A DNA stretch of 46,811 nt from Blastococcus sp. TF02A-35 (GTDB lineage Bacteria > Actinomycetota > Actinomycetes > Mycobacteriales > Geodermatophilaceae), in the NCBI RefSeq assembly GCF_004571075.1, contig NZ_SPQP01000030.1, forward strand, positions 1 to 46,811. The letters are read 5' to 3'. The position numbers and the translations under genes are program-made. The notes below the pieces were generated by a model, which was not told the DNA's origin, did not search any database, and saw only the letters and a program-made list of their open reading frames with translations. This document shows positions 40,681 to 44,520 of the stretch, piece by piece (position 1 is the stretch's first letter; every line of letters starts with the position of its first letter).

Positions 40681-41802
40681 TCACTCGACGGCGAAGGCCG
40701 TCGCCGGCTCGATGCGGACGGCCAGCCAGGCGGGGACCGCGGCAGCCAGCTGGCACATCAGGACCGCGGCACCCATGGCGGCGGCGAACAGCGAGTACTG
40801 CGGCTCCACCGGCCAGTCGTTGACGGCGGTGACCGTGTACATGGCGGCGGCGCTGACCGCCAGGCCCAGCGCGCCGCCGAGCACTCCCAGCCCCAGCCCC
40901 TCGGCAGCGACGAGGCCGAAGATTGCCCGCCGCGGGGCCCCGTGCACGCGGCGGATGGCGATCTCGGCGGTCCGCTGCCGCACGGCGGCGGCCAGCATGA
41001 TGGCGATGCCCAGGCCGGCGATGCCGAACGCCGCGATGCTGGCGTACACGGCGAGCCCGTCCAGCGTCGAGGTGGACTGCTGCTTCGCGGCCACCAGCGC
41101 CTCGGGCTGACCGACGGCGAGAGCGCTCAGGGCCAGCGGGTCGACGGAGGCCCGGATGCGGGCGGGGTCCAGGGTCGCCGCGGTGCGGATGACCAGCCGG
41201 TCGGCGCCCGTGGCGCCGGACAGCGCCAACGCCGTCTCGGCGTCGACGACGAGCGCGTCGGCGAGCTCGGGCAGCAGGGGGTCGCCGGCGATGACCCCGG
41301 TGGCCACGAACCGGCGACCACCGGCGAAGACCGTCGCCGGGAGCTCGGTCAGGCCCAGCTCGTCGGCGGCCCGCTGCCCCAGGACGGCGAAGGGCAGGCC
41401 CGGGACCGGCCGGGACGTACCCGACACCACCGGGAGCGGAGCGGCCTGCGGCCAGGCGGCGACGCCGACGACCCGGACGCCGCGGTCGGAGCGCTCCTGG
41501 GCGCTGAGCCGGACCGGGACCTCCGTGGTGACCTCGCGGAGGGCCGACGACGCCCCCGGCAGCCCCGCCGCGCGCGCGACCGCGCCGTTGGGGAGCCGGC
41601 CGGGCAGACCGTCCCGCGTGGGCTGGGGCTCGACGAGCCAGGCGTCGGACCCGAGGGCGTCGAGGTCGGCCAGCAGCTTGGCGCCGGCCGAGTGGGTGAG
41701 GCTCGGGATCAGCGTCATGGCGGTGACGGCGACGACCACCATGGCGATGCCGGTGACGAGCACGCGGGGGCGCGCCAGCAGCGAGCGCAGCGCCTCGGTC
41801 AC
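40681..41802 (-). CDS. FtsX/MacB-type ABC permease
   Basis: 373 residues from GTG 41802, overlapping the ATPase stop. One N-terminal membrane helix (VLVTGIAMVVVAVTAMTLI), an extracytoplasmic domain of about 210 residues, then three helices including AAFGIAGLGIAIMLAAAVRQR and the conserved cytoplasmic loop RTAEIAIRRVHGAPRRAIF. This is the MacB-fold mechanotransmission topology, used to drive extracytoplasmic export or lipoprotein work rather than bulk transport. Last gene of the five-gene operon beginning at 44520. Confidence 0.88.
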   Translation of the reverse strand: MTEALRSLLARPRVLVTGIAMVVVAVTAMTLIPSLTHSAGAKLLADLDALGSDAWLVEPQPTRDGLPGRLPNGAVARAAGLPGASSALREVTTEVPVRLSAQERSDRGVRVVGVAAWPQAAPLPVVSGTSRPVPGLPFAVLGQRAADELGLTELPATVFAGGRRFVATGVIAGDPLLPELADALVVDAETALALSGATGADRLVIRTAATLDPARIRASVDPLALSALAVGQPEALVAAKQQSTSTLDGLAVYASIAAFGIAGLGIAIMLAAAVRQRTAEIAIRRVHGAPRRAIFGLVAAEGLGLGVLGGALGLAVSAAAMYTVTAVNDWPVEPQYSLFAAAMGAAVLMCQLAAAVPAWLAVRIEPATAFAVE

Positions 41803-42482
41803 GACGCGGCCATGACGTGCTCGCGCACCCCGCGGTCACCGACGACCCACTGGCGGGTGCCGCGCGCGGCGAGCGCCTCGTCGTGGGTGACCACGATGAG
41901 GCAGCGGCCGGCGCTGAGGCTCTCGATGAGCTCGATGATGCTGGCGCCAGTCGTTGCATCGAGGTTGCCGGTCGGCTCGTCGGCCAGGATCACCTCCGGG
42001 TCGCGGGCGATGGAGCGGGCCAGCGCCGCACGCTGGCGCTCGCCGCCGGAGAGCTGCGTCGGCCGGTGGTCGGTCCGGTGGGCGAGACCGACCGCCTCCA
42101 GCGCCTCGCTCGTGCGGCGCCGGCGCTCGGCCGCGGCGACGCGCTGGTAGCGCATGCCGAGCTGCACGTTCTCGGCCACCGACATCCACGAGACGAGGTG
42201 CGCGGACTGGAACAGGTAGCCGATCGCGTACCGCTGGGCCTGCGTGCGCGGCCCGCTCCGGCCGAGGTCGTGCCCGCAGATGCGCACGCTGCCGGACGAG
42301 GGGAAGACCGTGCCGGCGATGACGTTGAGCAGAGTGCTCTTGCCGGCTCCCGACCGCCCGGTGACGGTGACGTAGTCACCCCGGCGGACCGTGCGCGTGA
42401 CGTCCTCGAGGATGGTGTCGTCGCGGTAGCGGACCGACACGTCGGCGAGCTCGACCAGCGCGTCGCCCGGTGCGGCGCTCAC
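41799..42482 (-). CDS. MacB/LolD-type ABC transporter ATPase
   Basis: 227 residues from GTG 42482. Walker A GRSGAGKSTLLN, Q-loop IGYLFQSAHLVSWMSVAENV, signature LSGGERQRAALARS, Walker B VILADEPTGNLD and switch His in VTHDEAL. The DEPTGNLD form is typical of the MacB/LolD/FtsE class. Four-base overlaps with the fusion protein upstream and the permease downstream fix it as the motor of one complex. Confidence 0.93.
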   Translation of the reverse strand: MSAAPGDALVELADVSVRYRDDTILEDVTRTVRRGDYVTVTGRSGAGKSTLLNVIAGTVFPSSGSVRICGHDLGRSGPRTQAQRYAIGYLFQSAHLVSWMSVAENVQLGMRYQRVAAAERRRRTSEALEAVGLAHRTDHRPTQLSGGERQRAALARSIARDPEVILADEPTGNLDATTGASIIELIESLSAGRCLIVVTHDEALAARGTRQWVVGDRGVREHVMAAS

Positions 42483-43534
42483 GGGGTGGTCGCCACCTCG
42501 GTGCCCGCGGACAGCCCCTCGGTGACCGCGACGTCGGTGCCGTTGGTCGGCCCGAGCGCGACGGGGCAGCGCTCCTGGCCGGCGCCGGGCCCGCGGCACT
42601 CCACGTAGGTGTCCCCTGCGGCGTCGACCCGCACGGCGGCGACCGGGACGGTCACCACACCTGTCGCGAGGACCACGCGCTGCTCGACGATGACCGACGT
42701 GCCGGCGGTCAGCGCGCCGGCCCCGGGCGGCGGGGCGAGCTGGAGGGCGTACTTGTTCTCCGGCGTCAGCGTGGCCGCCCCGGTCGGCGTGAGCGGGACC
42801 TCCTCGCCGCCCGCACCGGCGACCGGGACGAGCGCGAAGACCGCGCCGTCGGGCGGCGTCCCGTCCAGCTCCACGGTGACGGCGAGGTCCCCGGAGCTCA
42901 CGGTGAGCACCTCACCGCCGCTGAAGGCCTCCCCCACGCCGACGGTCACCTCGGTGACGGTCCAGGGGCCGGGGCCGGCGAGGAAGGCCAGCTCGGCGCG
43001 GGCGAACCCCGGGGTGTCGCCCATGCCGTGCCGGTCGCGCCAGCGTGCGGCCGCCCGGCCCAGGGAGTCGCTGAAGGCGCCGTTGACCGATCCCGCGAAC
43101 TCGCCCTCCGCGGTGAGGAACTGCTGCAGCTGGCGGACGTCGTCACCCTTGAGCGGGGGCCCGCCGGGGGGCGGGGCAAGCAGGTCCCGGTACATCGGGA
43201 TCGCCCCCGGTGCCACCGTGACCGGCTTCTCGTCGACGTGCAGCCACAGCTGCCCCGGGTGCAGCGTCTCGCCCACCGCGGCTCCCCGCGTGACGGTCCC
43301 CGCGGCCGACGACGACAGGACCAGCGCGTTCCGCGCGACGACCGACCCGTCGTACGGGGCGACCTCGGTGACGTCGGAGACCTCGGCAGCCGTCCACCCC
43401 CCGGACGGGGCCTCGGCGGAGGCCTGCCCCGCCGGGGCCCCTCCCTCGGTGGAGCAGCCGGCGACCAGGACGCCGAGCACGAGGCCGGCGACCTGCAGCG
43501 CCCTGCGCGTGCGCACGGCGGGCGTCCTGCTCAT
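42479..43534 (-). CDS. Membrane-fusion-like lipoprotein with peptidoglycan-binding domain
   Basis: 351 residues from ATG 43534. Lipoprotein signal with VLVAGC (Cys27). A split HlyD/MacA-like beta-barrel/lipoyl region (VVARNALVLSSSAAGTVT and GVVTVPVAAVRVDAAGDTYV) flanks a peptidoglycan-binding domain (about 126-170; LKGDDVRQLQQFLTAEGEF, FSDSLGRAAARW). In Gram-positives such proteins replace MacA and anchor the ABC complex to the wall. Start codon is 36 bases after the lipoprotein gene in the same operon. Confidence 0.87.
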   Translation of the reverse strand: MSRTPAVRTRRALQVAGLVLGVLVAGCSTEGGAPAGQASAEAPSGGWTAAEVSDVTEVAPYDGSVVARNALVLSSSAAGTVTRGAAVGETLHPGQLWLHVDEKPVTVAPGAIPMYRDLLAPPPGGPPLKGDDVRQLQQFLTAEGEFAGSVNGAFSDSLGRAAARWRDRHGMGDTPGFARAELAFLAGPGPWTVTEVTVGVGEAFSGGEVLTVSSGDLAVTVELDGTPPDGAVFALVPVAGAGGEEVPLTPTGAATLTPENKYALQLAPPPGAGALTAGTSVIVEQRVVLATGVVTVPVAAVRVDAAGDTYVECRGPGAGQERCPVALGPTNGTDVAVTEGLSAGTEVATTP

Positions 43535-44113: not shown

Positions 44114-44115
44114 CG

Positions 44116-44520
44116 TCAGACGCGGGTGCAGGAGCGGTCGTAGTAGAAGTTCTGGCCGGCCCCGTAGTTCGTGACCTTCTCGCTGTTCGCGAGCGACGGG
44201 ATGTTGCCGGTGCTCCACCAGCCGACCCAGCCGACCGTCGCCTCCGGGTCGTTGTCGCGCTGCGCGATGAACCCGGTGGCGTTGTCGCCCGAGAAGACGC
44301 CGACGTAGAAGACGCCGGTCTGGGTCATCTGCTGCGCCCGGAACCGCCAGGCCGTGTTGTCGTTGATGTAGGCGCCGCCGTTCCCACCGATGTACTGGTA
44401 GTGACCGGTGGACGTGCCGTTGATGCAGCTCGTCGCCGCCGCCTGCGCGGTCGCCGGCACGGCCGTCAGCAGGGCGGCGGTGACAGCCGCACCGGCGCCC
44501 AGGATGCGCTTCATTCCCAC
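44116..44520 (-). CDS. Small secreted two-cysteine protein
   Basis: 134 residues from GTG 44520 (GAGGAG nine bases upstream; ATG 44514 is the alternative). The signal peptide KRILGAGAAVTAALLTAVPA ends at ATAQA, leaving about 106 residues. The mature protein is Gly/Asn/aromatic-rich with one cysteine near each end (ATSC and RSCTRV), suggesting an end-to-end disulfide, and looks all-beta (YQYIGGNGGAYINDNTAWRF, VGWVGWWSTG). No family recognised. Its base composition is less GC-rich than its neighbours. It heads the operon with the lipoprotein and MacAB-like genes. Confidence 0.75.
   Translation of the reverse strand: MGMKRILGAGAAVTAALLTAVPATAQAAATSCINGTSTGHYQYIGGNGGAYINDNTAWRFRAQQMTQTGVFYVGVFSGDNATGFIAQRDNDPEATVGWVGWWSTGNIPSLANSEKVTNYGAGQNFYYDRSCTRV

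Follow-up and report, generated by a model that had tools for sequence, protein, structure and literature searches.

MacAB-like pumps that come with adaptors and accessory lipoproteins occur widely in the Actinomycetota, and for most of them no natural client is known. Relatives of MacB perform mechanical work outside the membrane and do not carry a substrate across it (PMC5985334). YknWXYZ is described as shielding Bacillus from its own toxin SDP, which is exported by the Sec pathway and contains a single disulfide (PMC5985334, PMC4887032), and AS-48EFGH as shielding Enterococcus from AS-48 (PMC5985334). The subject of this study is a five-gene operon of a related kind in a stretch of 46,811 nucleotides (contig NZ_SPQP01000030.1 in full, here called the window) from the soil actinobacterium Blastococcus sp. 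TF02A-35. The first gene encodes a small secreted protein (SEC), followed by a lipoprotein (LIP), a putative membrane-fusion or periplasmic adaptor lipoprotein (MFP), an ABC ATPase and an FtsX/MacB-type permease. The genome measures 3.93 Mb and belongs to the Geodermatophilaceae; its nearest named relative in the comparison is Blastococcus sp. TF02-8.

SEC is tied to one subfamily of these pumps. It was found in 3 of 112 Geodermatophilaceae genomes (the window's own, TF02-8, labelled G012, and a third labelled G482), and in all three it heads the order LIP-MFP-ATPase-permease. The permease search returned matches in 29 of the 112 genomes. Only three of these lie below E 1e-70, exactly the three that possess SEC, and the next-best family genome follows at E 3.6e-21. 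The probability of this co-occurrence by chance is 4.4e-6 if the genomes are taken as independent, a guide only, as the genomes are related and the test is post hoc. In the permease tree the three sequences group together at a support of 100/100, with that of G482 (locus L046) flagged as a long branch. The metagenomic SEC homologue P0003 and LIP homologue P0010 each lie on a contig of 11,550 bases, which suggests that they share one contig. Another metagenomic SEC homologue, P0014, is located on a contig of 67,113 bases.

Further afield SEC is rare. It occurs in 2 of 60 relatives, the window's genome included, and only in its own genome among 394 genomes of the class (apart from seven weak partial matches) and 296 of the phylum; these scans score a limited number of candidates per genome, and the inclusion of TF02-8 in the class and phylum sets is not evident. 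The seven weak matches (E 0.003-0.0097) were set aside, and three of their loci (L009, L012 and L015) stayed weak under a larger profile. A search of genome contigs yielded one locus. None was found in 72,556 plasmid records, and none was confirmed in viral contigs, where there were 16 pattern matches.

The pump genes behind SEC have a much wider distribution. Related operons were collected at 55 loci, comprising TF02-8, 14 family loci and 40 loci picked by hand (thus non-randomly) from the class list. Of these, 46 were tallied; L071, in which no permease was called, and L051-L058 were left out, the latter each with a lipoprotein of about 330 amino acids or similar, an MFP-sized gene, an ATPase and a permease nearby. 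A LIP-type gene lies directly 5' of the MFP in 39 of the 46 loci (L046 counted via tblastn), a tally in which 22 of the LIP matches are members of the LIP profile itself. The other seven have no LIP-type gene at the MFP, and two of them are situated at contig ends. A response regulator and a kinase are both found upstream in 28 of the 46 loci, and one of the pair in two more. The original prediction regarded the whole operon as undescribed. This holds for the SEC-headed version, in which the head gene is the unusual element, but not for the widespread LIP-MFP-ATPase-permease core, the four proteins of which are ordinary in kind. No title found in a literature search (titles and abstract starts, with subscription papers mostly uncovered) describes the operon. 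Two patterns had been named beforehand as telling against a linked system, namely SEC homologues standing alone and pump genes that always lack SEC. In none of the three genome-anchored cases does SEC stand apart from the operon. The second pattern applies outside the subfamily, where SEC is missing in 44 of the 46 tallied loci, and to none of the three operons inside it.

All five predicted genes are indeed present and closely linked on the minus strand, from 44520 to 40681, and the same five were returned by a codon-usage gene caller. SEC (44116..44520) and LIP (43571..44113) are separated by 2 bases, LIP and the MFP (42479..43534) by 36 bases, and the MFP overlaps the ATPase (41799..42482) by 4 bases, as does the ATPase the permease (40681..41802). 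The order is kept in TF02-8, where the identities to the window are 89% for SEC, 85% for LIP, 79% for the MFP, 84% for the ATPase and 85% for the permease, and the SEC-headed order also recurs in G482. The ratio of nonsynonymous to synonymous substitution rates (dN/dS) between the window and TF02-8 is 0.14-0.28 across the five proteins, with 0.18 for SEC. Because of these identities, the kept order and the dN/dS values, the operon is not a chance reading of open frames. A threonine-dehydratase-like gene lies behind it in both genomes. No promoter or terminator was found in a scan limited to sigma-70 consensus sites.

SEC comprises 134 amino acids when read from GTG 44520 and 132 from ATG 44514. 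The GTG lies nine bases 3' of a GAGGAG motif and corresponds to the ATG with which the orthologue in TF02-8 begins. The N-terminus resembles a Sec-type signal peptide, as judged by eye and hydropathy. Two cysteines, Cys30 and Cys129 (numbered from ATG 44514), are located near opposite ends of the mature part and probably form a disulfide. A protein search returned 12 homologues besides the window's own, and SEC has no match in the Pfam, NCBIfam or PDB families. A first structure model, built on 6 sequences, was unusable, with a predicted local distance difference test score (pLDDT) of 41. The second, built on 14 sequences, reached a mean pLDDT of 72 and a predicted template modelling score of 0.62, and the pLDDT of its five models ranges from 72 to 42. 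It predicts an all-beta protein that folds as a small, generic beta-sandwich. Fold comparisons with this model, for which Ena-type disulfide-linked appendage subunits and the PPC-type beta-sandwich were also considered, gave no significant relative, and Lcn972 is not among the 50 matches listed.

LIP carries its lipobox cysteine at position 35 and has no further membrane segment. Cys66, Cys99, Cys125 and Cys169 form two repeated CLxxRG...C units (66/99 and 125/169). In an alignment of 25 family members the lipid cysteine and four more cysteines are invariant in all rows, and the repeats read CMRxxGV..DP...C. The family is widespread in actinobacteria and has no confident model in Pfam or NCBIfam. 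A resemblance to COX17/CHCH proteins in 6 of the 25 members (best E 0.0088) was set aside as weak.

The MFP matches RND_mfp at E 9.6e-8, but its score of 31 bits stays below the model's cut-off (94.9), and a match to the C-terminal part of MacA has E 0.013. The original prediction saw in it a wall-anchored fusion lipoprotein. The lipobox (Cys27) agrees with the lipoprotein part, but the case for wall anchoring is weak, as the PG_binding_1 match (E 0.02) falls below the cut-off. The MFPs of all three SEC operons are lipidated and have a CX9C pair near the C-terminus (residues 313/323 in the window). Among 44 other MFPs, none contains a cysteine pair past residue 60, two have a single such cysteine, and two further ones show a lipobox-like start. 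The ATPase, encoded separately from the permease, matches ABC_tran at 1.9e-33, contains the Walker A, signature, Walker B and H-loop motifs and belongs to the FtsE/LolD/MacB group. FtsE and L_ocin_972_ABC are its best NCBIfam models, both below cut-off, and LolD is among the closest solved chains. The permease matches the FtsX family (PF02687) at 1.2e-14 and MacB chains at E 1.4e-4. By hydropathy, it has one hydrophobic segment at the N-terminus, an extracytoplasmic part of about 218 residues and three hydrophobic regions towards the C-terminus. A separate, motif-bearing ATPase and an FtsX-type permease with a large extracytoplasmic domain are characteristic of the MacB or type VII ABC kind, and both are present here. 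A PADLOC search for defence systems returned generic ATPase and permease matches only.

The locus shares several properties with YknWXYZ and SDP. In both, the ATPase, the FtsX/MacB-type permease and the MFP (a putative one in the window) are separate genes of one Gram-positive operon (PMC5985334, PMC4887032), and SEC would resemble SDP as a Sec-exported client with one disulfide. There are also differences: SEC heads the operon of its pump and is larger, with about 105 residues when mature compared to 42 for SDP, and the window's MFP is lipidated, unlike that of YknWXYZ. The accessory protein YknW is a Yip1-type membrane protein, while its counterpart here is a cysteine-repeat lipoprotein. LIP is not a YknW-like multi-helix accessory, because it lacks any further membrane segment. 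In the AS-48EFGH system an adaptor, an ATPase and a MacB-like permease are likewise found beside the genes of an endogenous antibacterial peptide. AS-48E, however, has four predicted membrane helices and LIP none, and AS-48 is a cyclic peptide of 70 residues (PMC5985334).

A toxin or signal together with its pump remains the most likely reading of the operon. We infer the disulfide of SEC, its status as client, the direction of transport and its toxic or signalling activity. In the proposed mechanism, SEC would be exported via the Sec pathway and fold outside the membrane into a small, disulfide-closed beta-sandwich. LIP, which its lipid would keep at the membrane's outer face, may catch SEC or target-bound SEC. 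By mechanotransmission, the ATPase and permease would use ATP hydrolysis to move the extracytoplasmic domain and, through the lipid-anchored MFP, would detach SEC from the membrane or wall. This would release SEC and protect the producer. Whether SEC and its cognate pump work in this way, as SDP and YknWXYZ do, with SEC as the extracytoplasmic client, is in our estimate an evenly balanced matter. The pairing is favoured because of the co-occurrence, the shared gene order, the permease grouping, the CX9C pair, the purifying selection, the open pump frames behind an interrupted SEC in G482 and the precedents of SDP and AS-48. The likeliest reason for such a pair would be an action of SEC on the cell envelopes of kin or neighbours. 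A bolder version is tentative and somewhat doubtful: SEC would be the first member of a new actinobacterial family of antibacterial proteins, exported by Sec and built as disulfide-closed beta-sandwiches, each made with a dedicated MacAB-like pump whose LIP, with its two cysteine repeats, is the capture and immunity factor. If it is true, the large LIP family found beside such pumps across the Actinomycetota would consist more generally of receptors that bind proteins or peptides active on the envelope.

Several observations weigh against the pairing of SEC with a client-handling pump. By sequence, SEC is unlike any toxin family in Pfam, NCBIfam or PDB. Its predicted fold is generic, and the protein is conserved instead of diversifying or fast-evolving. 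No separate immunity gene is recognisable at the operon. The lack of a SEC homologue in nearly all tallied operons indicates that the core pump does not need SEC. The sample consists of three related genomes of one family, one of which has an interrupted SEC copy.

The interrupted copy is that of G482, where a small secreted gene precedes LIP and the identities to the window are 31% for LIP, 38% for the MFP, 58% for the ATPase and 44% for the permease. The SEC-like gene (L046:6218-6625) is split by an in-frame TAG, while LIP and the ABC genes keep open frames. The stretch contains one TAG and one TGA, the latter at its end. Its two pieces, searched separately, score 20.8 and 11.7 bits against the SEC profile, values reached by 0 of 1000 shuffled sequences in each case. 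An interrupted SEC in front of open pump frames would fit a secreted protein that can be lost while its pump is retained. Integrase-like and transposase-like genes, named by eye, lie nearby in L046 (67% GC) and suggest mobility of this locus.

Alternatively, the four pump genes could form a general actinobacterial pump for envelope stress or antimicrobial peptides, with SEC as a surface protein of structural or protective function that is expressed alongside the pump and is not its client. Those actinobacterial LIP-MFP-ATPase-FtsX operons that are accompanied by a two-component system share the four-gene core and the five-cysteine LIP design; they differ in lacking SEC and the CX9C pair of the MFP, and the window's operon has no conserved regulatory neighbour. 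This general-pump explanation is considered unlikely. SEC might also be a ligand that is sensed by LIP and the pump and triggers a response, in the manner of Bce-type transporters that sense bacitracin, so that the operon would serve signalling and neither export nor immunity. BceAB offers a precedent for such sensing (PMC5985334), and in many genomes LIP homologues neighbour two-component systems, which would fit a sensing module. However, none of the three SEC operons has an adjacent sensor kinase or response regulator and the AfsR-like neighbour is not conserved; the ligand role is judged quite improbable.

A further candidate is the lactococcin 972 family (PF09683), of which SEC could be a member with its usual ABC partner. 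In the Actinomycetota these clusters are also headed by a small, Sec-type and beta-rich protein, followed by an FtsX-family permease and an ATPase, and the aligned actinobacterial members have two cysteines, as does SEC. Lcn972 itself is a beta-sandwich (PMC9964109), and among the NCBIfam models matching the ATPase, L_ocin_972_ABC ranks second, with 180 bits against a cut-off of 254.85. Nevertheless, SEC has no Pfam match, PF09683 was not found in the window's genome, and the profile comparison aligns the signal peptides only. The family units also consist of the secreted protein, a permease of about 690 amino acids and an ATPase of about 210, with no MFP or LIP in between. Such a permease and ATPase directly follow the lactococcin gene in 3 of 4 PF09683-matching genomes, but not in the window. 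Membership was rejected at the sequence level and is regarded as very improbable.

For the SEC-pump pair, the advantage of the locus is that one pump subfamily and a single candidate client occur in one operon, so that experiments could address the client, the capture protein and the pump jointly in one small system. The operon would also provide an entry point to the lipoprotein family with five cysteines.

Upstream of SEC, a divergent AfsR-like gene lies on the plus strand (44571..46811). Its start is uncertain (about 44571-44766), and the gene is incomplete because the contig stops at 46811. The Trans_reg_C, BTAD and AAA domains it carries are those of AfsR/SARP-type regulators. The nearest AfsR-like match in TF02-8 is located about 51 kb from the operon and is 40% identical over part of its length, and the match in G482 is on a different contig from the operon. 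The idea that this regulator belongs to the system is not supported by these comparisons, and in 28 of the 46 related operons a two-component system lies upstream instead. The gene is probably outside the system, and secondary-metabolite-like control is unsupported because the linkage is not conserved. A leader block 5' of SEC (44568..44589, minus strand; GGTGTG-N10-CACACC in the window) is near-identical in the window and TF02-8, the two sequences compared, and is a candidate operator. Between SEC and the AfsR-like gene, an inverted repeat at 44602-44627 consists of perfect 8-base arms, GTTCCGGA-N10-TCCGGAAC. It is missing in TF02-8 and is possibly the operator of the AfsR-like gene.

Other secreted proteins were seen near related pumps. 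Upstream of three LIP-MFP-ABC operons (L087:7443-7841, L092:5929-6291 and L094:4142-4540) there are members of the I36 peptidase inhibitor family, matching at E 3e-6 to 9e-9, two of which lie beyond two-component genes. Assignment of SEC to I36 (PF03995) was rejected: SEC has no Pfam match, and the scores of L087, L092 and L094 were reached by 824, 339 and 669 of 1000 shuffles. At L059:9821-14482 (G453, Geodermatophilaceae), a secreted protein of 121 amino acids with two cysteines is followed by a 287-residue lipoprotein, an MFP, an ATPase and a permease. The 121-residue protein was rejected as a SEC homologue, its score being reached by 683 and 708 of 1000 shuffles; the locus is possibly an independent pairing of a secreted protein with a pump. 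Elsewhere in the window, an open frame of 1971 codons at 29934-35849 displays a good coding register.

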